Below the pieces are notes generated by a model. The model was not told the origin of the DNA. It searched no databases and was given only the letters and a program-made list of their open reading frames with translations. Below are positions 4,691 to 43,605 of a stretch of 64,000 nt of DNA, piece by piece. Each line of letters begins with the position of its first letter. Position 1 is the stretch's first letter. The stretch is taken from contig JACEUQ010000001.1 in NCBI GenBank assembly GCA_024998815.1, positions 62,001 to 126,000 on the forward strand. The letters are read 5' to 3'. The translations under genes were made by a program, and so were the position numbers. Source of the stretch: Opitutus sp. GTDB taxonomy: Bacteria; Verrucomicrobiota; Verrucomicrobiia; Opitutales; Opitutaceae.

Positions 4691-7552
<2,862 letters not shown>

Positions 7553-13808: not shown

Positions 13809-13813
13809 ATCCC

Positions 13814-13884
13814 AGCTAGTAGCTCTCAGCTCTAAGCTAATAGCTCCCAGCTCCCAGCTCCAAGCTCTCAGCTCCCAGCTCCTT
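13814..13884. repeat. Heptanucleotide tandem repeat (AGCTCCC type) between purE and purK
   Basis: About ten units with a 7-bp period: AGCTAGT, AGCTCTC, AGCTCTA, AGCTAAT, AGCTCCC, AGCTCCC, AGCTCCA, AGCTCTC, AGCTCCC, AGCTCC. Each keeps AGCT and varies in the last three bases. It occupies nearly the whole purE-purK spacer. The same family occurs inside the giant uvrA gene (20.3, 21.6, 22.0, 23.5 and 24.1 kb). Confidence 0.95.
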
Positions 13885-17547: not shown

Positions 17548-17780
17548 CCTTGAGCTCACGCTCAAGGCCACCGGGATTGTGTTCACGGAAGAGCGTGGCC
17601 TTGAGCGTGAGCTCAAGGATTCCGTAATGGCGTTCACGTCAGCGTGGCTTTGAGCGTGAGCTCAAGGATTCCGTAATGGCGTTCACGGAAGAGCGTGGCC
17701 TTGAGCGTGAGCTCAAGGATTCCGTAATGGCGTTCACGGCAGAGCGTGGCCTTGAGCGTGAGCTCAAGGATTCCGTAACT
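17548..17780. repeat. 51-bp tandem repeat with palindromic core
   Basis: An inverted pair (17548-17571 / 17596-17619) runs into a tandem array. The block containing GCGTGGCCTTGAGCGTGAGC begins at about 17593, 17642, 17693 and 17744, giving periods of 49, 51 and 51 bp. Each unit carries CTTGAGCGTGAGCTCAAG (an imperfect palindrome), then GATTCCGTAATGGCGTTCAC. No coding potential. It sits downstream of the split UvrA module gene (which ends at 17811) and might affect its 3' end. Confidence 0.9.
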
Positions 17781-17810: not shown

Positions 17811-18905
17811 CTACCGGTTGAGCTTAGCTTTCAGGTACGGCGCGGTGGGGCTGCTCTTGAGTTTCAATAACCCGGCCAGCGGGCCTTGGTACAACAGCTC
17901 GCCGCCGTCGGGGCCGCCCACCGGGCCGAGTTCGACAATATAATCAGCCTCCGCCAGCAGGTCCAAGTGGTGCTCGATCACCACCACGGTGTGGCCTTGC
18001 TCGACCAGCGAATGCAGCACGTGGATCAACTTTTCGCAGTCGCTCAGGTGCAAGCCGATGGTCGGCTCCTCCAGCAGGTAGAGGTTTTTAACCGCGATGC
18101 CGCGCGAGCGTTCCTTGTAACTGGCCAAGCCGTGGGCCAGCTCGGTCACCAGTTTGAGCCGCTGGGCTTCGCCGCCGGAGAGCGTCGGCGAGGATTGGCC
18201 GAGCGTGAGGTAACCGAGTCCGCAATCGACCATCAGTTTGCAGACCTGGGCGAGCTGCGAGTGGAAGTCGAAAAACACCGCCGCCTCCTCGAAGGTGAGT
18301 TGGAGAACTTGGCCGATATTTTTCCCCTTCCAGGTGATGTCGGCCAGATCCGCACTGTATCGCGTGCCGTGGCACTCGTCGCACGGCAGGTAGGTGTCGG
18401 GCATGAAGGCCATTTCCAGTTTGATCCGCCCGCCGCCGGAGCAGGTTTCGCAGCGCCCGCCGGCGGTGTTGAAGGAAAACCGGCCGGCCGAGTAGCCGTG
18501 GATTTTCGATTCGGGCAGCGACGCGAAGAAGGTGCGGATCAGGTCGAAAATCCCCAGGTAGGTCGCCGGGGTGGAGCGCGGGGTTTTACCGATGGGCGAC
18601 TGGTCGACCTCGATCACGGTTTTAAAGCCCTCGGCGCCGCGCAAATCGAGGAACGGCACGGTGCCGGCCGGTTCGGGGGCGAAGCCGGTGGCGTTGAGGA
18701 ATTCGCGGCCGGTGAGTTTGGACTTCTTCTCCTTGATCGCGTGGCTGACCGCCGGGTAAAGCACGTCGCGAAACAGGGTGGATTTACCCGCCCCGCTGGG
18801 GCCGGCGACCATGATCAAGCGCCCGAGCGGCAGGCGCAGGTCGAAGTGCTTCAGGTTGCGGAAACACACGCCGTTGAGCGTGAGCCAAGTGAGTTCGGAG
18901 GGCAT
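17811..18905 (-). CDS. UvrA-type ABC module, free-standing (fourth module of a split tandem UvrA)
   Basis: A 364-residue protein equal to a second UvrA half: Walker A GPSGAGKST (35-43), VDQSPIGKTPRSTPATY (100-116), zinc CxxC pairs CETC (152-155) and CDEC (175-178), Q-loop region, and signature LSGGEAQRL (242-250). Walker B is LYLLEEPT, with glutamate (279) where aspartate is normal but the catalytic glutamate retained. There is no first half of its own. The three-module protein encoded just upstream on the same strand (19733-24934) ends exactly at the linker that would precede this module. I infer that the two genes are parts of one former four-module UvrA and that their products act together. 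Confidence 0.85.
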   Translation of the reverse strand: MPSELTWLTLNGVCFRNLKHFDLRLPLGRLIMVAGPSGAGKSTLFRDVLYPAVSHAIKEKKSKLTGREFLNATGFAPEPAGTVPFLDLRGAEGFKTVIEVDQSPIGKTPRSTPATYLGIFDLIRTFFASLPESKIHGYSAGRFSFNTAGGRCETCSGGGRIKLEMAFMPDTYLPCDECHGTRYSADLADITWKGKNIGQVLQLTFEEAAVFFDFHSQLAQVCKLMVDCGLGYLTLGQSSPTLSGGEAQRLKLVTELAHGLASYKERSRGIAVKNLYLLEEPTIGLHLSDCEKLIHVLHSLVEQGHTVVVIEHHLDLLAEADYIVELGPVGGPDGGELLYQGPLAGLLKLKSSPTAPYLKAKLNR

Positions 18906-18947
18906 GAAAACGGGGGCGATAAGTAACCGCGCTTTGGGTGCGATTGT

Positions 18948-19373
18948 TTATGAAAGCAGGTGGTAAGCAGCGGGTCCGCCGATAACGCAGGTGGTGTCGA
19001 GGCCGCGGTCGAACGTGGCTAGCCGCGCGTGCCGAGAAACGGCGAGGGCAAGCAGGTAAATGTCGGTCAGTTGGTTTGCGGTGGGTAAACGCGGGAAGCG
19101 GCGTGCGTCGAGTAGCGAGTGGTTGTCGGGCCAGAATTGGTGACCTGGGGCGGCGGTGAGTTTTACTAGCAACTCGCGGGCGGCCGCAGTGGAGCCTGGA
19201 CCGCGCGGATAGGCGGGATTGCCGAGGATGCGCATGAAAGCGTTTTCGGTCAGCGGGCAAGTGGCCCAGCCGTCGCGCACCGCATGTTCGGTGAAAAAGC
19301 GCAGCGCAGCATCACCATGGGGGTGACCGGCCTCGCCTAACGCGATGAGCAGGTTGGCGTCGAAGAGAAACAT
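18948..19373 (-). CDS. vapC: VapC-family PIN-domain toxin
   Basis: A 141-residue PIN-domain ribonuclease. The acidic metal-binding residues are in place: Asp5 (FLFDANLLI), Glu43 (LTENAFMRIL), Asp104 (LTDIYLLALA) and Asp122 (TFDRGL). VapC toxins cut tRNA or rRNA when not bound by VapB. The gene overlaps the VapB stop by one base, and the pair lies between two pieces of the UvrA-type gene system, 42 bp from the fourth module. Confidence 0.87.
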   Translation of the reverse strand: MFLFDANLLIALGEAGHPHGDAALRFFTEHAVRDGWATCPLTENAFMRILGNPAYPRGPGSTAAARELLVKLTAAPGHQFWPDNHSLLDARRFPRLPTANQLTDIYLLALAVSRHARLATFDRGLDTTCVIGGPAAYHLLS

Positions 19374-19669
19374 CAGAGTGGTCGGTCGGGGTTTAGGGCG
19401 CGGTCGAGTTCTTCTTGGTCGATGGCATCCTGAATTTTTTGAATGTCCTCCATCGTAACGACGACACCTCGATCTCGTTTGAGCCGTAGAATGCCGAAGG
19501 GCCCGGTTTCGTAGAGAGTGGAGTCGAAGGCGGGCGTGGCTGGTGCGGGCTGCTGGATTTCGCGGCGTAGGGCGTGCTCGACGATGGCCTTGAGCGTGGT
19601 GTGGCGGCGGGCGGCGACGGATTTGGCCTCAATCAGCAAATCGTCAGGAAGATCCAAGGTGGTTTTCAT
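19373..19669 (-). CDS. vapB: VapB-family antitoxin
   Basis: A 98-residue protein starting MKTTLDLPDDLLIEAKSVAARRHTT, a ribbon-helix-helix DNA-binding N-terminus (KTTLDLPDDLL then a helix with TTLKAIVEHALR), as in VapB antitoxins. The C-terminus is charged and probably wraps VapC. It is the first gene of the pair, 63 bp downstream of the end of the three-module UvrA-type gene. It likely autoregulates the pair, although no operator could be identified. Confidence 0.85.
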   Translation of the reverse strand: MKTTLDLPDDLLIEAKSVAARRHTTLKAIVEHALRREIQQPAPATPAFDSTLYETGPFGILRLKRDRGVVVTMEDIQKIQDAIDQEELDRALNPDRPL

Positions 19670-19732
19670 ATATGGGCCACGATATGGTTTTATGGGTGGG
19701 GTGCAAGTTGTGGCGCACGAGGGGCGTCGATT

Positions 19733-22700
19733 TTATGCGCGCCGAGGCTTTTGGGGTTTGGGGGCGGGTACCGGTCGATAGGAACCGCGCAAGGGGTGGG
19801 CGATGCCTTTGGCCAAAAACAGGCCAGTTAACGATTTCGCGCTGGCTTTGATTTCGGCGGGCGTGCCCTGGGCCAACAATTCGCCTCCGTGGCGGCCGGC
19901 GGCAGGCCCGAGGTCGATGATTTGGTCGGCGCGCTCCATCAGCTCGTCGTCGTGCTCGACCACCAGAAGGGTGTTACCTTTGTCGCGCAGGGTGAGCAGG
20001 GTTTCGATCAACCGGTCGTTGTCGCGGGCGTGCAGGCCGATGGACGGCTCGTCGAGTACGTAGAGTACGCCGGCGAGGTTCGTACCCAGTTGCGCGGCCA
20101 GGCGGATACGCTGGGCTTCGCCGCCCGAGAGCGTGTCGGTGGGCCGGTCCATGGCCAGGTAGCCGAGACCCACGTGGTCGAGGAATTTTAACCGTTCCTG
20201 GATTTGGGGGACGATGTCCTGGGTGATCAACCGTCCGCGTTCGTCGAGCTGGAGCGCGCCGAGCAGGGCGATGAGTTGTGCGGGCGTGCTGGCGAGCAGT
20301 TCGGGCAGGGAAACGGTGGACGGAAGCTGGGAGCTAGGAGCTCGGAGCTTTGAGCTGGTTGGGGCGTTGAGGTGCAGCCGGACGGCGCGGGCGATGCGGT
20401 TGAGGCGTTGGCCGTGGCAGTCCGGGCAGGGCGTGCCGGTGTCGGCTAGGTCGTCGCCGGAGACGATGCCGAACTCGCGCAGGCGGGCGGCGGGATCGTC
20501 TTCGTTGTCCTCAACCGGTTCGAGCATCCAGGGGAACACGCGACCATGGCCTCGGCAGGTCGGGCACCAGCCGCGCGGCGAGTTGTGGGAAAACTGCTTC
20601 GGGTCGAGCTCGGGGAAGGACTCGCCGGTTTCGATGTCGGTGCGGGTGGTGGAGAACCACGAAAGCACGTCGCCGGTGGGCAAGGCGATGAAGCAGGAGC
20701 CTTTGCCGAGCTGAAGGGCGCGGTCGAGTGCGGCGGAAGCGGAAGTTTCGGAAGAAGTCAGAGGTCGGAGGTCAGGGGTCGTGTCGGAAGGGGACGTGGC
20801 GGAAGAAGTCAGAGGTCGGACGTCAGAGGTCGGAGTTTTTTTTGCTGATGTTCGGCCCTCGGACTTCTGCTTTTTGCTCTCTGACTTCCGATTTCCGACA
20901 TCTGATGTCTGACTTCTGACATCTGACATCTGTTTCAAATCCGCGACGACCACCTCGATGTCGTGTTCAGAGTAGCGGTCGAGTTTTTGGAAGGTGTCGA
21001 CGCGCAGAAGGCGGCCGTCGGCGCGCATGAGTTCGTAGCCGTGGTCGGCGATCCAGGTGGCGATGGGCTGGTGGTGGCCCTTGCGGCCGCGGATCAGCGG
21101 GGCGCAGAGGTAGAGATGCTTCGCCTTGGTGGCTTTGGGCGAGGCGAGGACGGTGGCGAGGAGCTTTTTGAGCTGGCCCGGGGTGAGCGGCTGGACCGGT
21201 TTTCCGGTGTCGGGGTGGTGTTGCACGCCCATGCGGGCGTACAGCAGGCGCAGGTATTGGGCGACCTCGGTGATGGTGGCGACGGTGGACTTGCGCGAGC
21301 CGCGGGTGATGCGCTGCTCGATGGCGACGGTCGGCGGAATGCCGGTGAGCCGGTCGATGGCGGGGCGGGGGAGTTGTTCAACGAACTGGCGCGCGTAGGG
21401 CGACATGGACTCCATGAACCGCCGCTGACCCTCGGCAAAAACGATGTCGAAGGCCAGGGTGGATTTGCCCGAGCCAGACACGCCGGTGACGACGGTCAAC
21501 TGGCGATGGGCGATGGCGAGGGAGATGTTTTTGAGGTTGTTCTCGCGGGCGCCGGTGAGGGTGAGCTGGGAGCTGGGAGCTAGGAGCTGAGAGCTTTGAA
21601 TTGGGAGCTTTGAAGTGGGAGATGGGAGATGGGAGCTATTAGCTCTTAGCTCCAAGCTCATAGCTCCTAGCTCTGAGCTGGCTAGGGCTTCGCGGAGAAA
21701 GGGGGCGGTGGCCGTGGCGGCGTGGGCGACCACGTCGGGCGGGCCTTCGGCGATGATTTGGCCGCCGTCACTGCCGGCTTCAGGGCCGACTTCGATCAGC
21801 CAGTCGGCGGATTTTAACACGTCCAAATTGTGCTCGATCACCACCACACTGTGGCCGCGATCGACCAGCGCCTGCAGCACAGCGATCAGGCGTTTGACGT
21901 CGTGGCGGTGCAACCCGGTCGTCGGCTCGTCCAAAAGGAGCAACGCTCCTTTGAGCGGAGAGCTGGGAGCGGCGAGCTTGGAGCTAGGAGCTCGGAGCGG
22001 AGAGCTGGTAGCTGGAAGTTCGGCGCTGAGGGAATGGCTCATGGGCCTACCGGCAGACCCCGCAGCCCGTTTCAATTTGGCACTAGGCGTGTTGGGGGGC
22101 GCGGCAGAAGTGTCACCTAATAGGTGACACTCGCCGGAGAAGCCGCTGAGGTATTTGACGAGTTTTAACCGCTGGGATTCGCCGCCGCTGAGGGTGTTGA
22201 GCGGTTGGCCGAGCGTGAGGTAGCCGAGGCCAACTGACTCCAGACTGGCGAGGCGGCTGCGGATCGGCGTGTGATTTTCGAACAGCGGCAGCGCGTCGGT
22301 CACGCTCGTCGCCAGCAGGTCGGACACGCTGAGGCCGTTCCATTGGATCGCCAAGACTTCGGGTTTGAAGCGACGGCTTTCGCAGATCGGGCAGGGGACA
22401 AATACGTCGGACAAAAACTGCATCTCCACCCTTTCGTAACCGAGGCCTTGGCAGTGGTCGCAGCGACCTTCGCCGCTGTTAAAGGAGAACGACGAGCTGT
22501 TAAAACCAGCGGCTTTGGCGGCCGGCTCCTTCGCGAAAAGTTCGCGGATCAGCTCCCACGCCTCGGTGTAAAGCGCCGGATTGGATCGCGGGGTGCGTGA
22601 GAGCGGCGACTGGTCGACCAGGACAATCTCGTCGAACAGCTCGTCGCCGGTGATTGCGGCGATCACGGCCGGATCGTCGGTTAACTGGAGGCGTTTCGCC

Positions 22701-24934
22701 AGCAGGCCCTGGTGAATCACGTTGTCCAATAGCGTGGATTTGCCCGAGCCGGACACGCCCGAGAGCGCGACGAGGCGGTGCAGCGGCAGGTGGAGGGTGA
22801 CGTTGCGCAGGTTGTGTTTGGAGGCGTCGGTGAAGGTCAGCCAGGCGGGAGGTAATGCACAATGTCCAAGGTCCAATGACCGATGACCAATGGCGGAGGG
22901 GGAGGGGGGCAATGCACAATGTCCAATGTCCAATGCGCAATGACCAATGCCCGATGGGGAATGACCAAGGCCCAATGACCGATGACCAATGTCCGAAGAT
23001 TTTGGCGCGATGGGGGTTACCGGGCGGCGGGTGGCGGGGGCGGCGATGGTTTCGCGGCCGGACAGGTAGCGGCCGGTGATGCTCGCTTCGGAGGCGAGTA
23101 GGGCGGGCAATTCGCCCTGGAATACAATGTGGCCGCCGCGCGTGCCGGGTTCGGGGCCGACCTCGATGAGGTGGTCGGCGGCGCGGATCATGGCTTCGTC
23201 GTGCTCGACCACCACCACGGTGTTACCGGCGTCGGTTAACGTGCGGATGATCGCGATCAGCCGCTCGATGTCGCGGGGGTGCAGGCCGACGCTGGGCTCG
23301 TCGAGGACGAAGAGCGTGTCCACCAGCGAGGTGCCGAGGCAGGAGGTGAGGTTGACGCGCTGAACTTCGCCGCCGGAGAGGGTTTTGGAGCTGCGGTCGA
23401 GCGTGAGGTAGCCGAGCCCGACCTGTTGCAGGTAACTCAGGCGGGTGCGGATCGAATCGAGGGCGAGGTCGGCGGCGCTGGCGCCGCCGCTTGGAGCTTG
23501 GAGCTTTGAGCTTGGAGCTTCGCGCAGCCGCGCGAGTAGCTCGGCGACGGGAGTCAGGTAGAGTTCGGGCAGGGTCTTGCCCTGCCAGCGCCAGCAGAGC
23601 GATTCGGGTTGGAGGCGCGTGCCGTGGCAGGTCGGGCAGAGGTTATAGGTGCGGTAGCGCGAGAGGAAAACCCGCACGTGCATCTTGTAGGTGCTCTTTT
23701 CCAACCAGCGGAAAAAGCCCTTTACGCCGTACCAGGCGCGCGGCCATTCGAGGTCGTTCTCCCCGTAGCCGGGCTCGCCGTTGATCACAAAATCACGCTG
23801 CTCCGGCGTCAGGCTGCCAAAGGCGACATTCGTCGGGATTTTCTTCCGTTTGGCGATGCTCTTCAGGTCGTCTTTGGACGCGCCGTAAACCTCGCCTTCC
23901 CAGCATTTGATCGCGCCGTCGTCGATCGAGAGCGTCACGTCAGGGATAGCCAGGCGGTAGTCGATCTCGATGATGCGGCCAAAGCCCTTGCAGTGCGGGC
24001 AGGCGCCGAGCGGGGAATTGAAGGAAAACAGTGAGGGGGAGGCCGCGCGGAAGGTGCGGCCCGTTTCAGGCGAGTGCAGCCCGCGCGAATAGTGGCCGAG
24101 CGGCGACGAAGCTAAGAGCTGGGAGCCGGGAGCTGAGAGCTCGGCGGAGAAGACATAGAGTTGTCCCTGGCCGAAGTGCAGCGCCTGTTCGGCGGCTTCA
24201 AGGAAACGAGCGCGGGCGTCGGCGGTGAGCGTGACGCGGTCTTGGGCCACGAAGAGGGCGGCGTTCGGGGCGAGCTGGGCGTCGAGGGCTTCGGGATTGG
24301 CTAGCAGGTCGTCGATGCGGGCGACGGCGAGGTGGCCGTCGAGCGTCGGCGTGAGCACGCGGACGTAGGACTGGCCCTTGAGGTGGGTGAGGATTTCGTG
24401 CCAGGTGAGCTTTTCCGGTTTGGTGACGCGGAAGGCGACGATCACGGCGGCGTCGGGGGCGCTGGCGTGGGTTTTTTGCCAGATGGAGGCCGGGGTGTCG
24501 TCCTCGACCGGTTTGCCGGTGGCGGGGTCGAAGCAGGTGGCGACGTGGCTGAACCAGACTTTAAAGAAATCGGTTAACTCCGTCATCGTGCCGACGGTCG
24601 AGCGCGAGGTTTTAACCGTGTTGGTCTGCTCGATGGCGATGGACGGGCGGATGTTCTCGATCGCGTCGACTTGAGGCTTGTCGAGCAGGTCGAGGAACTG
24701 GCGAGTGTAGGCGGAGAACGTCTCGACGTAACGCCTCTGGCCCTCGGCGTGAAGGGTGTCGAAGACGAGCGAGCTTTTACCCGCGCCGGACAGGCCGGTG
24801 ACGACCACATAGTTGCCCAAGGGCAGGTCGAGATCGAAGCCCTTGAGGTTGTTTTGGCGAACCCCGCGCAGGCGGATGCATTCGGGCTTTCTCGAGGCGA
24901 GGGAAGGGGATGCGGATAAGGAGGGACGAACCAC
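19733..24934 (-). CDS. uvrA: Giant UvrA-type protein with three ABC modules and heptad-repeat insertions
   Basis: 1733 residues. Module 1 is about 20-630 (Walker A GLSGAGKSS 47-55, CPHC/CPTC zinc pairs, LSGGEVQRV at 519), module 2 about 695-1080 (GVSGSGKST 726-734, CDHC/CPIC, LSGGESQRL at 915) and module 3 about 1125-1710 (GVSGSGKST 1151-1159, [17 protein letters not shown] at 1602). That is one complete UvrA plus the first half of another. Chlamydial UvrA is a single tandem protein of about 1800 residues with four modules, and here the fourth is the separate gene at 17811-18905. Low-complexity inserts encoded by heptanucleotide repeats lie near residues 266-278, 474-484, 646-697, 935-995, 1084-1124, 1335-1400 and 1525-1540. 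The 935-995 insert separates signature and Walker B of module 2. All Walker and signature motifs are intact, so the gene is probably expressed. Confidence 0.9.
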   Translation of the reverse strand: MVRPSLSASPSLASRKPECIRLRGVRQNNLKGFDLDLPLGNYVVVTGLSGAGKSSLVFDTLHAEGQRRYVETFSAYTRQFLDLLDKPQVDAIENIRPSIAIEQTNTVKTSRSTVGTMTELTDFFKVWFSHVATCFDPATGKPVEDDTPASIWQKTHASAPDAAVIVAFRVTKPEKLTWHEILTHLKGQSYVRVLTPTLDGHLAVARIDDLLANPEALDAQLAPNAALFVAQDRVTLTADARARFLEAAEQALHFGQGQLYVFSAELSAPGSQLLASSPLGHYSRGLHSPETGRTFRAASPSLFSFNSPLGACPHCKGFGRIIEIDYRLAIPDVTLSIDDGAIKCWEGEVYGASKDDLKSIAKRKKIPTNVAFGSLTPEQRDFVINGEPGYGENDLEWPRAWYGVKGFFRWLEKSTYKMHVRVFLSRYRTYNLCPTCHGTRLQPESLCWRWQGKTLPELYLTPVAELLARLREAPSSKLQAPSGGASAADLALDSIRTRLSYLQQVGLGYLTLDRSSKTLSGGEVQRVNLTSCLGTSLVDTLFVLDEPSVGLHPRDIERLIAIIRTLTDAGNTVVVVEHDEAMIRAADHLIEVGPEPGTRGGHIVFQGELPALLASEASITGRYLSGRETIAAPATRRPVTPIAPKSSDIGHRSLGLGHSPSGIGHCALDIGHCALPPSPSAIGHRSLDLGHCALPPAWLTFTDASKHNLRNVTLHLPLHRLVALSGVSGSGKSTLLDNVIHQGLLAKRLQLTDDPAVIAAITGDELFDEIVLVDQSPLSRTPRSNPALYTEAWELIRELFAKEPAAKAAGFNSSSFSFNSGEGRCDHCQGLGYERVEMQFLSDVFVPCPICESRRFKPEVLAIQWNGLSVSDLLATSVTDALPLFENHTPIRSRLASLESVGLGYLTLGQPLNTLSGGESQRLKLVKYLSGFSGECHLLGDTSAAPPNTPSAKLKRAAGSAGRPMSHSLSAELPATSSPLRAPSSKLAAPSSPLKGALLLLDEPTTGLHRHDVKRLIAVLQALVDRGHSVVVIEHNLDVLKSADWLIEVGPEAGSDGGQIIAEGPPDVVAHAATATAPFLREALASSELGAMSLELRANSSHLPSPTSKLPIQSSQLLAPSSQLTLTGARENNLKNISLAIAHRQLTVVTGVSGSGKSTLAFDIVFAEGQRRFMESMSPYARQFVEQLPRPAIDRLTGIPPTVAIEQRITRGSRKSTVATITEVAQYLRLLYARMGVQHHPDTGKPVQPLTPGQLKKLLATVLASPKATKAKHLYLCAPLIRGRKGHHQPIATWIADHGYELMRADGRLLRVDTFQKLDRYSEHDIEVVVADLKQMSDVRSQTSDVGNRKSESKKQKSEGRTSAKKTPTSDVRPLTSSATSPSDTTPDLRPLTSSETSASAALDRALQLGKGSCFIALPTGDVLSWFSTTRTDIETGESFPELDPKQFSHNSPRGWCPTCRGHGRVFPWMLEPVEDNEDDPAARLREFGIVSGDDLADTGTPCPDCHGQRLNRIARAVRLHLNAPTSSKLRAPSSQLPSTVSLPELLASTPAQLIALLGALQLDERGRLITQDIVPQIQERLKFLDHVGLGYLAMDRPTDTLSGGEAQRIRLAAQLGTNLAGVLYVLDEPSIGLHARDNDRLIETLLTLRDKGNTLLVVEHDDELMERADQIIDLGPAAGRHGGELLAQGTPAEIKASAKSLTGLFLAKGIAHPLRGSYRPVPAPKPQKPRRA
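20315..20362. repeat. AGCTCCC-type heptad repeat inside giant uvrA (module 3)
   Basis: Units of GGGAGCT/AGGAGCT/CGGAGCT/TTGAGCT with a 7-bp period, encoding SSKLRAPSSQLPS-like residues about 1526-1539 on the minus strand. The insert is in frame, between the CPDC zinc pair and the module 3 signature. Confidence 0.88.
20745..20936. repeat. TCTGACA-type heptad repeat inside giant uvrA (module 3)
   Basis: Two blocks. 20756-20840 has GTCAGAG, GTCGGAG, GTCAGGG and similar units. 20876-20936 has CTGACTT, CCGATTT, CCGACAT, CTGATGT, CTGACTT, CTGACAT, CTGACAT. All have a 7-bp period. They encode about 65 residues rich in Ser, Asp, Lys and Thr (QMSDVRSQTSDVGNRK, then SDVRPLTSS), absent from ordinary UvrA. 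Confidence 0.9.
21563..21690. repeat. AGCTCCC-type heptad repeat inside giant uvrA (module 2/3 linker)
   Basis: The longest AGCT-type array in the gene: GAGCTGG, GAGCTGG, GAGCTAG, GAGCTGA, GAGCTTT and so on. It translates on the minus strand as about 40 residues of the form SSELGAMSLELRANSS and SSQLLAPSSQL, directly before module 3. No stop codon arises, although an AGCTCCT unit in one frame would give TAG. Confidence 0.92.
21955..22020. repeat. AGCTCCC-type heptad repeat inside giant uvrA (module 2 core)
   Basis: Seven-base units (GGAGCTG, GGAGCGG, CGAGCTT, GGAGCTA, GGAGCTC, GGAGCGG, AGAGCTG) encode TSSPLRAPSSKLAAPSSPL directly before Walker B (GALLLLDEPTTG) of module 2. This is part of a larger 21950-22132 insertion. 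Confidence 0.9.
22109..22131. repeat. Perfect 11-bp palindrome inside uvrA coding sequence
   Basis: AGTGTCACCTA, one A, TAGGTGACACT: two perfect 11-bp inverted arms with a 1-base centre. It lies within the module 2 insertion, encoding GECHLLGDTS, and has the look of a small mobile palindrome or binding site. No other copy was found in the window. Confidence 0.85.
22850..22995. repeat. TGACCAA-type heptad repeat inside giant uvrA (module 1/2 linker)
   Basis: Repeated CCAATGA, CCGATGA, CCAATGG, CCAATGT, CCAATGC units at about 7-bp spacing. On the coding strand they give a Gly-His-Ser/Cys-Leu peptide (IGHRSLGLGHSP, IGHCALDIGHCAL), about 45 residues between modules 1 and 2. The same DNA family occurs in the cus operon. 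Confidence 0.9.
23487..23525. repeat. Short AGCTCCC-type heptad repeat inside giant uvrA (module 1)
   Basis: Four to five units (TTGGAGC, TTGGAGC, TTTGAGC, TTGGAGC), encoding APSSKLQAPS at about residues 473-482. A matching short array lies at 24105-24145 (units AGAGCTG, GGAGCCG, GGAGCTG, AGAGCTC), encoding SAPGSQLLASS at about 267-277. Confidence 0.85.
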
Positions 24935-25434: not shown

Positions 25435-27175
25435 CCTAAATCCGGCAATAGAAACTAGCCAAAAATCACGCAGGTGATTGTTTGGCTGTCATATGCCGCC
25501 GTTTTTACCGCCGGAAAAAGCTCACCCCGAGGGTGAGTCAGAAAACCCTGATCACAAGGCAACGCCAAGCGATGCCGCCGAGGTGTTGATTGTGGATACA
25601 CCCGGAGGACGTTTTCGTGCGCAGTTCGCCCCAGAGTTGCCGGTGAGCCCCTTGGGGGCACTGGTGTTTTTCACGCAGTACTTGTGTGCGACAGGAGGCT
25701 TCGAGGCACTGGTTGCGGACACGCCGCTTTGTTACAGCAGCAACCGCGCACACCGCCCTCGCGACGTGATTGGAACCCTGCTTTTGGGGATGCTCTCCGG
25801 GCACTATCGCTACGCGCACCTCGCGGCCCTGCGCGGCGACGACATTGCCCCGAGCCTGCTCGGACTTAAGTCGATTGTCAGCGAGGATTGTGTGCGCCGG
25901 GCGCTGGCTCGCATCGGTGCCGAGCAGGGGCAGGACTGGTTGCGGCGTCACCTCGACCAAACCTGTCATGGGTTTTTGGATAACCAGTGGATCCTCGACA
26001 TCGATGTCACCATCAAGCCCATCTATGGACGTCAGGAAGGTGCCAGCATCGGCTATAACCCGCAAAAGCCCGGACGCCCCAGCCACGCCTACCACACCTA
26101 CTGGATCGCCACCTTGCGCCTGTGTCTGGACGTGGAGGTGCACCCCGGCGATCAATCCGCCGCCGGACATGGTTTTGCGGGGCTGTGGGCGCTCATCGAC
26201 CGACTGCCAGCCGAGCGCCGGCCCCATCTTTTGCGCGGTGACTGCGCCTATGGCCAGGAGGCGCTGCTCAGTGAAGCTGAAGCGCGTAAACTCAACTATT
26301 TGTTCAAACTGCGCCGCACCGCCAAGGCCCGCGAGCTGGTGGCCGCGCTTGAACGCACCACCACCACCGCTTGGACCGACGCCGGACAAGGCTGGCAGGG
26401 CTGCGAAAGCTGCCTGCGCCTGCAAGGCTGGAACCGGGCCCGACGTGTGGTGGTCTTGCGCCGTCGCCTCAACGACCAACGCCACCCCCGGGCCCGCCGC
26501 CGCCTCGTGCGCGAGCAAGCCGACCACGCTTTGCTGCTGAACATCCCCGACGCGGCCGCCTGCGAGCCGATCATCTACGAACATCAGATCCTCGTTACGA
26601 GCCTGCCCTACGAGATCCTTACCCTTGCCACCCTGTATCGGGAACGTGGGGGCGCGGAAAACCCCTTCGACGAGCTCAAGAACCAGTGGAGCTGGTCGGG
26701 GTTTACCTCCCAGGAGCTAAACTCCTGTCAGCACGCCGCGCGTTTGGCCGCACTGGTTTACAACTGGTGGACGCTCTATCACCGCCTGCTTCAACCCGGT
26801 CAGCACCACGAGGCGGTGAGTACACGTCCCCGTCTGCTCTGCGGAGCGACCCGGCAGAGCGAACACTCCGGTCAACGCCGCCTGGACGTGCGCTTGAGCC
26901 ATGCCGAGGCACCTCGCCTGAGTGAACTCATCACAAAGCTGGCCAGATGGTTACATGGTATCCTTCATAATGCGGAGCAATGGAGTGTCGCCCAGCGCTG
27001 GGGGCAAATCGTAGCGAGGATTTTACAGGAAAACTTCCCTGTACTCGGCCCTGAACCGCCTTTGGCCACCGCCCCAAGCTGATCGCGCTTCCGTTCAGCC
27101 TGCCGCAGCACTCTCCACCCTCATCTATCCGACGGGCAACGCCCGCCGGCCGCACTTTCTATTGCCGGATTTAGG
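25435..27175 (+). mobile_element. IS1380-family insertion sequence, complete
   Basis: The 1741-bp element is bounded by 20-bp perfect terminal inverted repeats: left CCTAAATCCGGCAATAGAAA (25435-25454), and the same sequence inverted at 27156-27175. It is flanked by a 5-bp direct duplication TTTAT (25430-25434 and 27176-27180). It carries one transposase gene and sits inside deoR in opposite orientation. Confidence 0.95.
25493..27082 (+). CDS. IS1380-family transposase
   Basis: 529 residues from ATG 25493 (a TTG at 25478 would add five). DDE residues appear in family context: LDIDVTIKPIYGRQEGA, then GYNPQKPGRPSHAYHTYWI, typical of IS1380; LLRGDCAYGQE; and YRERGGAENPFDELKNQW for the glutamate. 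Length and motifs are complete, with no frameshift, so the element could be active. Confidence 0.93.
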   Translation: MPPFLPPEKAHPEGESENPDHKATPSDAAEVLIVDTPGGRFRAQFAPELPVSPLGALVFFTQYLCATGGFEALVADTPLCYSSNRAHRPRDVIGTLLLGMLSGHYRYAHLAALRGDDIAPSLLGLKSIVSEDCVRRALARIGAEQGQDWLRRHLDQTCHGFLDNQWILDIDVTIKPIYGRQEGASIGYNPQKPGRPSHAYHTYWIATLRLCLDVEVHPGDQSAAGHGFAGLWALIDRLPAERRPHLLRGDCAYGQEALLSEAEARKLNYLFKLRRTAKARELVAALERTTTTAWTDAGQGWQGCESCLRLQGWNRARRVVVLRRRLNDQRHPRARRRLVREQADHALLLNIPDAAACEPIIYEHQILVTSLPYEILTLATLYRERGGAENPFDELKNQWSWSGFTSQELNSCQHAARLAALVYNWWTLYHRLLQPGQHHEAVSTRPRLLCGATRQSEHSGQRRLDVRLSHAEAPRLSELITKLARWLHGILHNAEQWSVAQRWGQIVARILQENFPVLGPEPPLATAPS

Positions 27176-35705: not shown

Positions 35706-35773
<68 letters not shown>

Positions 35774-38413: not shown

Positions 38414-41400
38414 TTAAGGGACGGATGGGACGGATGCCTCGCGGGCGAGGCGGCGTTCCCAATACCAGGCGAAGAAGACGGGGACGGAGAAGAGGGACGC
38501 GATGTCGAAGATCATGCCGCCGATCACGGGCAACATCATCGGGGCCATCAGTTCGGCACCGCGTCCGGTGGCCCATAACACGGGGACAAGGGAGAGCATC
38601 GTGGTCATATTCGTCATGATCGCTGGGCGGCGGCGGCGTAGGCCGGCTTCGAAAATGCGCGCGTGGACGTCGGCGAGGTCGCGGGGGGCGGTGCGGAATT
38701 TTTCCTGGAGGTAGGTGCCGAGGAGGATGCCGTCGTTGAACATCACGCCGAGCAGGACGAGGAAACCCACCGTTACGGCGGTGGTGAGCTGCGCGCCCCA
38801 GAGCCAGACGAGGACGAAGCCGCCGGCGGTAGTGACCGTGGCATTGCAGAAAATGATGATGGAGGTGATCAGCCACGAGCGTGTGCCGACAAAGATGAGC
38901 ATGACCATGACGGCGAAGGACGCGGCGATGACCCAGCCGAGGGTGCGGTCGGCTTTTAACTTTTGCTCGTAGCGGCCGACCCAGCGGTAGGTCGCACCAG
39001 AAGGCAGGGGGAGTTCGCCGGAGGCGATGGCCGCGCGGAGACGGGCGTCAGCGGAGGTAACGATGTCGGTCTCTGACGCGCCGGGGGCGGCGTTGAACAT
39101 CACGTATTGGGTGCGTTTGCCGCCTTCGCTGCGGATGGCCATGGGGCCGATGACGTAGGTGAGGCCGGCCTCGCTCGGACGCTGCGCGACGACGTGGGGC
39201 GTGAGGGTGGCGGGGAGGTTTTCGCCGGCGGGAATGGTGAGCTCCGCGCGCTCGGCGCGCGGAATGACCAATGACGAATGACCAATGTCCAATGACGGGT
39301 CGTTCACGCTCCTCGCTACGAGATTGTCGATAGGGACGAGGTTGCGCTGGTGGGTGAGCGAGAGGGTGGCGAGGAGGGCGGAGGTGGAAGGGACTTCGAG
39401 AGTGAAGGTGGTGGGTTTGGCGAGGAGGCTCGAGAGCGGGACGGCGCCGTGTTCGCCGGTCATGCCGACTTGGAGTCCGAGCAATTCGTCGGGGTCGTCG
39501 CGGCGTTCGCGGAGGTAGCGGATGCGGACGGGGTAGCGGAGTGCGCCTTCGACGGAGAAGGTGACGGGCATGCCGCCGAAGGCGGATTCGACGCCTTCGA
39601 GCACCATTTCCTGGGTGAAGCCGAAGCGGGCGAGTTTGGCGGGGTCGAGGCGAATCTCGGCGTAGGTTTTGCCTCCTTCGCGCTGCATCTGGGCGTCGGC
39701 GGCGCCGGGGGTGGCCTGGATGATTTTTTCGGCTTTTTCGGCGAAGCGTTCGAGCGCGGCGGCGTCGTCGCCGAGGAGTTGCAGGGCCATGAGGCTGCGG
39801 ATACCGGTGGAGAGCATGACGACGCGGGTCTCGATGGGCTGGAGCCAGCTGGGGGCGACGCCGGGCAGGTCGGTGGCGGCGGCGAGGCTGGCGCGGACTT
39901 CGGCGAGGGTACGCGGGCGGCGTTCAGTGGTGCCGTCGGGGAGGAGGATGTCTTCGATGGGCCAGTCTTTGTAGGGTTTTAGGACGACGACGGTCTCGAT
40001 CATGCCGATGGGGGCTGGGTCGAGGGCGGTCTCGGCGCGGCCGAGTTTGCCCATGACCCCGGCGACTTCGGGGACTTCCTCGATGGCGCGGTTTTGAATG
40101 GCCATGACGCGCTGGGTTTCGCCGAGTCCGGCGGTGGCGGGCACGGACGGCATGAAGAGCAGGCTGCCTTCGTCGAGGGGCGGGAGGAAACTAGAGCCGA
40201 CGCCGGGGAACCAGCGGGTGAGGAGGGCGTCGGCGTGGGTGGAGCGCAGGTCGCCGCCGGCGGCGGAGATGGCGGCCCGGAGGGGCGTGCTGACGCGGGG
40301 CCAACCGAGGCCGAGGAGGTAGCCGCCGCCGGCGAGGAGGACGAGGGTGGAGGCGAAGAGGACCTTGTGGTGCAAGATATGGGTGTAGGCCCAGTCGTAG
40401 GAGACGTGGATGGCGCGGCTGGTGGGGTTTTGCTCGTAGTCCACGAGTTTCTCACGGCCGAGGCGCCAGACGGCAGAGCCGACGAGTGCGGCGAGAGCGG
40501 GGGCGAAGAGCCATCCGGGGACATGGAGCGACCAGCGGTCGTGGTCGAAGGGGAGGATATAACCCGTGTTTATATACCAGCCAAAGGTGAGGCCGGCGGC
40601 GAGGCCGGCGAGGAGGAGAAGCGGGGTCTTGCGCACCTGCCAGGGCGGGAGGAGGAGGCGGCAGAGGGCGGGGACGAGGAAGACGCCGACGAGGACGGCG
40701 CCGCTGATGGCGAGGGTTTTGGTGAGGGCGAGCGGGATGAAGAGGCGGCCTGCCTGGTCGGTGAGGGCGAAGAGGGGGAGAAAGCCGATGACGGTGGTGG
40801 CGGCGGAGGTTACGAGGGGGCGGGCGACCTCGCGGGAGGCGGTGACGACGGTTTCGGTGATTTCCTCGTTCCAGGGCGAGGTGGGCATGGGTCGGTTTTC
40901 GCGCCGGCACTTCGCCTGGAGATAGACGAGGTGTTGGGTGATGTTTTCCGTCATGATGATGCCGAAATCGACCATCACGCCGATAGCGATGGCGATGCCG
41001 GCGAGGCTCATGAGGTTCGCACTCACGCCGAGGAAGTGCATGACGAGGAACGCGAAGAGCATGCCGAGCGGCAGGCTGACGGCGGTGGCGATGCTGGCGC
41101 GGAGGTGTAACAGGAAAAGCACGACGACGAGCATCGTGGTGACGATGGCCTCGCGGAGGTTGTCGGTGACGGTGGCGTTGGTCTCGTCGATGAGCTGGGA
41201 GCGGTCGTAGAAGGCGACGGGTTCGAGTTTCTCGGCGGCGAGGGTGGGGGCGAGGTCGGCGAGGCGTTGTTTGATGCCGGCGATGACGCGTTTGGGGTCT
41301 TCGTGGACGCGGAGGGCGACGATGGCGCCGACCTGTTCCTGGTGTCCGTCGGCGAGCAGGCCCTGGCGGAATTGTCCGCCGAGCTGAACCTGGGCGATCT

Positions 41401-42163: not shown

Positions 42164-42171
42164 GGCTGGAA

Positions 42172-42200
42172 TGACCAATGCCCAATGTCCAATGACCAAT
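42172..42200. repeat. TGACCAA-type heptad repeat in the cusB-cusA spacer
   Basis: Four units (TGACCAA, TGCCCAA, TGTCCAA, TGACCAA) immediately upstream of the cusA start codon. They occupy the space where a ribosome site for cusA would lie. Confidence 0.9.
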
Positions 42201-42223
42201 GGGCGGAGGTGGTCGGTCGTGGG

Positions 42224-43552: not shown

Positions 43553-43560
43553 GGGGAAAA

Positions 43561-43605
43561 TGACCAATGACCAATGACCAATGTCCAATGACCAATGACC
43601 AATGA
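43561..43605. repeat. TGACCAA-type heptad repeat upstream of cusB
   Basis: Six clean units (TGACCAA x3, TGTCCAA, TGACCAA x2) and a partial seventh between the YHS-like gene and cusB, directly upstream of the cusB start. Confidence 0.95.

Follow-up and report, generated by a model that had tools for sequence, protein, structure and literature searches.

A reverse-strand gene in Opitutus sp. encodes a UvrA-type protein that stops after its third ABC module, and a fourth module follows as a gene of its own, which raises the question of whether the two genes are pieces of one tandem UvrA and, if so, how the chain was cut and whether the pieces still act together. We addressed this question in a window of 64,000 nucleotides (the whole stretch of DNA analysed; contig JACEUQ010000001.1, positions 62,001 to 126,000) and in genomes related to it, with the window genome referred to as G000.

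A tandem UvrA encoded by two genes

The UvrA-type features of the locus, in window coordinates and with residue limits of modules 1-3 as set in this analysis, are:

19733-24934, - strand: three-module UvrA protein (modules 1, 2 and 3), 1733 aa, GTG start (open reading frame, motifs, NCBIfam/Pfam, dN/dS)
23015-24934, - strand: module 1, first-half ABC module, residues 1-640 (partial PF17755 match)
21635-22864, - strand: module 2, second-half ABC module, residues 691-1100 (repeat-derived insert between signature and Walker B)
19733-21559, - strand: module 3, first-half ABC module, residues 1126-1733 (UvrA_inter, PF17760, present)
17811-18905, - strand: separate UvrA module 4, 364 aa, ATG start (open reading frame, motifs, tree, dN/dS)

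Walker A, signature and Walker B motifs each occur three times in the 1733-aa protein and once in the 364-aa protein, with H-loops found by motif search in three of the four modules and by eye in module 3. NCBIfam models give the module order as first half, second half, first half, with the short protein as a second half. Aligned with chain 2r6f_A, a UvrA of known structure, the short protein matches positions 628-957 over its residues 6-363. The long protein continues for 13 residues past its conserved HPLRG-YR block and stops within what is the linker of joined relatives. These observations bear out the original prediction that the long gene consists of three UvrA modules ending at the linker after module 3, and that the next UvrA-type gene on the same strand is exactly one second-half module. 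Against the UvrA equivalog model TIGR00630 (cut-off 729.8), the three-module protein scores above the cut-off (1352.5 bits) and module 4 alone below it (384.9 bits). The match of module 1 to the UvrA DNA-binding domain PF17755 covers profile positions 1-64 of 110, and the Pfam profile scan gave no PF17755 match in module 3. For UvrA_inter, module 1 falls slightly short of the cut-off (21.0 bits; cut-off 23.3). In the Walker B motif of module 4, Glu replaces Asp (LLEEPTIGL). A verrucomicrobial tandem UvrA is taken to be one polypeptide; in the window, a stop codon, a VapBC pair and a new start lie between modules 3 and 4.

Tandem repeats within the three-module gene are in frame and are read as linkers and loops, 177 residues in total. 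With these subtracted, the combined length of the two proteins falls from 2097 aa (1733 + 364) to 1920 aa, compared with 1859-1932 aa in six chlamydial tandem UvrAs, so that the predicted closeness to the chlamydial size holds roughly. The repeats are degenerate and short, mostly with 7-bp units (window positions 20734-20932, 21563-21679, 21953-22030 and 22847-22991), and arrays of 7-bp units also occur elsewhere in the window (13810-13882, 39263-39296, 42170-42201 and 43559-43605). We additionally observed about four copies of a 51-bp repeat immediately downstream of module 4 (17581-17778) and a run of 37 C (35728-35764).

Two further genes of the window are relevant, the first of which had been overlooked in the original prediction:

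4691-7552, + strand: canonical two-module UvrA, 953 aa, second uvrA gene of the genome (NF001503 1173.7 bits, cut-off 1147; TIGR00630 1142 bits, cut-off 729.8)
25478-27082, + strand: DDE transposase gene, upstream of the three-module gene (Pfam PF13701/PF01609)

Homologues of genes beyond the transposase adjoin the tandem gene in G001, G008 and G012. Searching the window genome with module 4 returned 11 matches, comprising the three-module gene, module 4, the canonical UvrA and one weak ABC match. Two candidate approaches were set aside: the structures predicted for module 4 alone, from three window sequences, had a mean pLDDT of 66 and were too poor for use, and the matches to a defence library (ABC/UvrA-like; best mad3 and mad8) are the same ones that canonical UvrA receives.

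The joined form prevails among relatives

We searched with module 4 in 120 genomes of the family, drawn evenly, plus members of genera g1, g3 and g44, and counted matches of 66% identity or more as orthologous. Module 4 was present in 110 of the 120 family genomes: 99 have it joined to module 3, 9 have it as a separate gene (G000, G014, G057, G062, G064, G091, G110, G113 and G127) and 2 could not be classed (G045 and G049, where it lies at a contig end). It was not found in the other 10, several of which are incomplete. The joined cases comprise 83 in frames of 1830-2278 aa (classed by frame length, with which those fetched in full agree), 14 cut by contig ends (10 classed after looking for module 3 in that frame; G040, G048, G081 and G118 by frame length alone) and 2 with a frame break elsewhere (G028 and G120). 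One of them, G098, has its module-3 end in frame with module 4 and is an uncounted contig-end row in the module-4 tree described below.

Both forms occur within the window's own genus (13 genomes), where module 4 is part of a frame of 1895-1978 aa in G001, G005, G006, G008 and G009, is joined to module 3 in frames that run into contig ends in G004 and G010, and is separate in G000, G011 and G012; G003 has a module 4 piece at a contig end, and only canonical-like matches were among those listed for G002 and G007. The tandem form itself was found across the window's class and, among 240 genomes, in at least five families of other classes of the phylum (G132, G184, G228, G249 and G288). Because the one-chain form prevails in the family and also occurs beyond the window's class, we regard the cut as secondary. 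The contrary case, in which related genomes always carry module 4 as an independent distant gene, did not occur: module 4 is set apart in all four g3 genomes and in G057 and G110 (g46), not family-wide.

We also noticed, in nine genomes, a perfect 18-bp palindrome (6-bp arms, 6-bp spacer), a candidate operator, close to where the tandem uvrA gene begins, the gene being either intact or cut by a contig end. The sites are:

L067, 8622-8639
L284, 1519-1536
L286, 7159-7176
L287, 8307-8324
L293, 1361-1378
L331, 7258-7275
L332, 6804-6821
L281, 2007-2024
L089, 2210-2227

The 1.66 Mb of fetched, partly overlapping loci hold one other near-match, and the palindrome is absent from the window and from the whole window genome. 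An operator shared by the two pieces was rejected as an explanation, given this absence and given that none of the palindrome's 12 places in the fetched loci precedes a separate module 4.

Module 4 belongs to the verrucomicrobial tandem clade

In a tree of second-half modules (92 rows), the 30 verrucomicrobial module 4s, joined and separate, cluster together (SH-aLRT 96), as do the 27 module 2s in a clade of their own (SH-aLRT 99), with the canonical second halves outside the module-4 clade. A forced clade of all module 4s and canonical rows was not rejected (p = 0.131), which bears on the depth of the clade and not on the place of the window row. Module 4 grouping with unrelated canonical second halves, the outcome that would have spoken against the original prediction, was not what we found: the window row lies within the tandem module-4 clade. 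The prediction had also expected it to group with chlamydial module 4; in the trees, the verrucomicrobial halves do not group with the chlamydial ones, although a single clade of both module 4s was not rejected (see below).

Motif signatures follow the same division. The Glu-type Walker B is present in 80 of 81 module 4s from the family and order, joined or separate, the remaining row being cut by a contig end before the motif, and Asp occurs in at least 4 rows of the wider 30-row module-4 set; in canonical modules and in module 2, every motif that was matched has Asp (unmatched in 3/46 and 1/27, respectively). Five residues before the signature, modules 1 and 3 of the window carry an Arg and modules 2 and 4 a Gln, a pattern kept by nearly all rows of every group. 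The exceptions are His in 1/23 canonical second halves and 1/27 module 2s, and an unmatched signature in 2/27 module 3s and 1/5 chlamydial module 3s.

A VapBC pair occupies the break

Between the two pieces lies a toxin-antitoxin pair (18948-19669, - strand) that was overlooked in the original prediction:

19373-19669, - strand: VapB-like antitoxin ORF, 98 aa (sequence; stop overlaps the VapC start)
18948-19373, - strand: VapC-family PIN ribonuclease toxin, 141 aa (TIGR00028 105 bits, cut-off 73.6; PF01850; tree)

The locus is a run of four genes on one strand (modules 1-3, vapB, vapC, module 4), with 63 nt from the three-module stop to vapB and 42 nt from the VapC stop to the module 4 ATG. 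Two further genomes of this genus, G011 and G012, repeat the order (end of module 3, VapBC, module 4) with alignable junction DNA, and dN/dS of VapB and VapC among G000, G011 and G012 is 0.054-0.172. Homologues of VapB adjoin homologues of VapC in 26 of 29 loci, some of these matches being weak.

A similar arrangement was found in genus g44 (15 genomes, 13 with module 4), where module 4 is joined in 10 (among the joined set, G439 and G464 have contig ends) and separate in G127, G447 and G461. In G127, the 1.4 kb between the parts hold a 137-aa ORF and a VapBC whose VapB and VapC are 75% and 69% identical to the window's; in G447, about 5.2 kb separate the parts, and the VapBC is 76%/77% identical to the window's. 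The G447 genome, with a contamination rating of 4%, carries another copy of module 4 on a different contig, where again no module 3 precedes it. Its interval between modules 3 and 4 (L399, 1144-6373) holds a secreted-looking ORF, the VapBC and two ORFs judged by eye, one of 349 aa resembling a nuclease and the other being a second PIN-type candidate.

A VapC tree built from 29 of 39 VapC matches places the junction VapCs of G000, G011, G012, G127 and G447 in one clade (97/96) against 24 family VapCs from elsewhere, and no uvrA module was found in the DNA fetched around each of those 24. Within the clade, the G447 VapC is nearer to the window VapC than to the G127 VapC, in conflict with the module-4 tree. 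The VapBC-type cut may thus have had a single origin and then spread, or one VapBC lineage may have inserted repeatedly at one site. We considered recombination of VapBC together with long uvrA flanks and rejected it: in a window-by-window comparison of module 4 and the module-3 end, the identity of G127 and G447 to G000 is no higher than that of intact g44 relatives; the one exception, the final block of the module-3 end (67 and 73% in G127 and G447 vs. 49, 55 and 51%; 67% in intact G008), is too short to weigh. The pair may have inserted by chance into a linker that tolerates it, or it may serve to keep both parts inherited together.

Clean breaks seen in other lineages fall at the same junction

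Further split lineages show module 4 relocated. In all four genomes of genus g3, module 4 stands alone among other genes, with modules 1-3 on other contigs in G014 and G091. In G113 (65% complete), only a fragment of modules 1-3 was seen, and in the single-contig, 99% complete genome G062, which has module 4 (L069, 2952-4061), modules 1-3 were not found. The three-module gene of g3 has a neighbour in common with the window, G001 and G015, which argues that module 4 was the part that moved. Within g46, modules 1-3 and module 4 are about 780 kb apart on opposite strands in G057 and on different short contigs in G110; in G088 (72% complete), only modules 1-3 were detected. Module 4 of G064 follows an IS-transposase-like ORF (recognised by eye), with modules 1-3 on a different contig. 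In five genomes (G000, G011, G012, G127 and G447), module 4 still comes after the module 3 end on the same strand. The start of module 4 occurs in G012 as two similar, non-identical copies on two contigs, perhaps a strain mixture.

The module-4 tree for the family and order has 81 rows, of which 52 are intact, 13 split, 14 at contig ends and 2 frameshifted, the last two classes being uncounted. Parsimony requires at least 6 changes between intact and split on this tree; because the VapC tree conflicts with it, we claim about three origins instead, namely the VapBC type, the relocation in g3 and g46 (SH-aLRT 93, not starred) and G064, and we hold this number to be fairly firm. Every clean separation seen, whether by intervening DNA or by relocation, falls at the 3/4 junction. 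Were the three linkers all equally prone to breakage, the chance that one linker takes every break would be (1/3)^2 = 0.11 for three events and (1/3)^5 = 0.004 for six, so that a preference of breaks for the 3/4 junction is suggestive only; the query was module 4, which is best at finding cuts at its own border.

Frame breaks without inserted DNA were also observed, at the following loci:

L315 (G028): near the module 2 start
L282 (G064): near the module 2 start
L081 (G120): in module 3
L319 (G226): in several places
L318 (G179): near the module 3 end

Those away from a clean module border may be sequencing errors or decay, and the breaks in G028, G064, G120 and G226 suggest that the tandem gene is dispensable in some genomes.

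Both pieces remain under purifying selection

We calculated dN/dS by the Nei-Gojobori method, using for G012 the module 4 copy on contig C12 and not the partial copy beside VapBC on C77. For the split pair G000/G012, the values for modules 1-4 are 0.114, 0.179, 0.118 and 0.056 at dS 0.46-0.60, compared with 0.200, 0.170, 0.211 and 0.151 for the intact same-genus pair G001/G008; the split pair is not above intact same-genus pairs, except that module 2 is level with them. Module 4 gives 0.058 in both G000/G011 and G011/G012, and the frames are open over their full length for the three-module gene in G000 and G012 and for module 4 in G000 and G011. Both pieces are under purifying selection in the window's lineage.

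Module 4 values in other lineages are 0.128 (G127/G055), 0.059 (G014/G062), 0.072 (G014/G091) and 0.209 (G064/G017). The g46 values range from 0.227 to 0.466, with 0.227 for module 4 and 0.253-0.371 for modules 1-3 in G057/G110, and constraint may be loosening in this genus.

A two-chain complex and its alternatives

These sequence comparisons support a verrucomicrobial-type tandem UvrA that was secondarily cut at the linker between modules 3 and 4, and we consider it probable that its pieces re-associate. The tandem protein is a pseudo-dimer in which two UvrA units, A (modules 1 and 2) and B (modules 3 and 4), are covalently linked in the joined form; here the chain was cut at the short 3/4 linker, the position taken by VapBC in the window's lineage. 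In PMC6486640, the proximal ATP site is described as combining ATP-binding domain I with signature domain II, and the distal site as combining ATP-binding domain II with signature domain I, one of the two being marked by a Gln and the other by an Arg five residues before the signature. Because each site pairs an ATP-binding part with the signature part of the other half within one monomer, the ATP sites of unit B would need both modules 3 and 4, and module 4 would dock on module 3 to form them, with extensive native contact letting the protein tolerate a chain break at this point. As the Arg/Gln markers are kept, four ATP sites would be expected, two of them only between the two polypeptides. 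That the active complex would need two polypeptides, as originally predicted, is a reasonable inference. The tandem protein may do a second job in damage recognition, since the genome also has a canonical UvrA.

The break could in principle be an assembly or sequencing artefact, and some module 4s elsewhere do lie at contig ends (G045 and G049); this is extremely unlikely, because G011 and G012, as independent assemblies, show the same VapBC junction in the same order with alignable DNA, their coding substitutions are mostly silent, and the window genome is in 3 contigs. Alternatively, the split may have disabled unit B of a redundant repair gene whose pieces are on their way out, as the canonical UvrA, the broken frames of G028, G064, G120 and G226 and the failure to find modules 1-3 in G062 might suggest. 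We judge such decay to be very unlikely: in the window's lineage, full-length open frames in both pieces and dN/dS of 0.056-0.179 at the synonymous divergence of G000/G012 point to long maintenance after the split. Freed from the chain, module 4 might instead have ceased to act with modules 1-3 and taken up a job of its own, for example partnering canonical UvrA or serving as a UvrA-like ATPase in its own right. The G062 genome indicates that module 4 can be retained by itself, if perhaps only temporarily, and the solitary position of module 4 throughout g3, its distance from modules 1-3 in G057 and its having the lowest dN/dS of the four modules in G000/G012 would all fit. We nevertheless find an independent job improbable, given that module 4 has kept its place behind module 3 in the five genomes with a VapBC junction, that separate and joined module 4s share the same Walker B, and that the loss in G062 would be recent if its sister G014 indicates former presence (module 4 dS 0.10).

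A further alternative concerns descent, namely that verrucomicrobial and chlamydial tandem UvrAs go back to one ancient duplication and fusion in the PVC group, with the window locus as a broken member. For comparison, we searched six chlamydial MAG genomes, reached by a 16S probe: each has one tandem frame, and no second UvrA was found at E 1e-20, which, together with the model NF001885, agrees with the earlier statement that Chlamydiae carry a single four-module tandem UvrA. The module order is identical in the two groups, a single PF17755 match was obtained for each of L310, chlamydial L295, poribacterial L303 and the protein of the window, and UvrA_inter was matched twice in L295, L303 and L310. 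We then built a tree of concatenated units (53 rows, 930 columns) from 12 of 22 intact verrucomicrobial proteins plus the window and G012, 14 of 23 canonical UvrAs and 5 of 6 chlamydial ones, leaving out L296, in which one Walker A was unmatched by pattern. Verrucomicrobial units A and B are each supported at 100/100 and stand together (86/79) against canonical, chlamydial and poribacterial units. A single clade with the chlamydial counterpart was rejected for unit A (p = 0.0168) and not for unit B (p = 0.106), nor for module 2 (p = 0.187) or module 4 (p = 0.534, the constrained tree being 0.41 higher). The NF001885 cut-off of 3054 is far above the three-module protein (776.6 bits) and module 4 (237 bits), a misfit to be read with the fact that none of nine genomes reached through loci, six of them chlamydial, passes it either. 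On balance, separate origins of the two tandem forms are favoured by these trees, not settled, and a common PVC origin appears unlikely. Of the original prediction that the locus has the chlamydial architecture broken at the 3/4 junction, the tandem form and the break are upheld by the joined relatives and the module-4 tree, while the implied descent is not, being rejected for unit A and left undecided for unit B.

The stronger points of the secondarily cut tandem UvrA are the VapBC insert, the recurrent break in relatives and the continued constraint on the detached module 4. It is possible, and we put it forward tentatively, that module 4 is a detachable subunit, that a working 3+1 machine has arisen more than once at the 3/4 junction, and that one VapBC lineage, which occupies this operon-like run in two genera, is dedicated to the break, perhaps tying the parts together by addiction or co-expression. 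As nature provides in tandem UvrA a covalent dimer of a protein central to repair, the joined (4) and cut (3+1) sister forms allow comparison of the contacts that hold UvrA together and of the need for ATP-site coupling within one chain, and the locus offers a toxin-antitoxin pair within a repair gene that still looks functional. A second, tandem UvrA beside the canonical one is widespread in the window's class, and the open-licence literature searched yielded no paper on its role; among open-licence papers, as far as titles and the first part of abstracts tell, none dealt with a split tandem UvrA or with VapBC in uvrA.

Comparison with known systems

The closest known form is the intact verrucomicrobial tandem UvrA, which shares with the window its module order, the Glu-type Walker B of module 4 and its clade, and in the same genus also the neighbouring genes on the module 1 side, but which is one chain, whereas the window has two polypeptides with VapBC between them. 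In Opitutus terrae, probably a relative, REP insertions are described in both uvrA genes (in the part of PMC3733652 available); these are likewise repeat inserts, but short palindromic ones, and the split and the toxin-antitoxin insert belong, as far as that part goes, to the window. Canonical UvrA (TIGR00630/NF001503) shares with the tandem form the ABC modules, motifs and composite ATP-site markers; it has two modules per chain and, according to PMC6486640, works as a homodimer, whereas the window's tandem UvrA has four modules over two chains. A poribacterial genome (G362) encodes a 1957-aa tandem UvrA (L303, 1755-7628) beside a canonical one. Finally, the chlamydial tandem UvrA (NF001885, PRK00635) shares with the window four tandem UvrA modules and a single matched DNA-binding domain in total, but is one chain, is the sole UvrA listed in the six genomes, whereas the window genome has a canonical UvrA too, and takes a separate place in the trees, where the tests reject shared descent in the case of unit A and do not reject it in the case of unit B.
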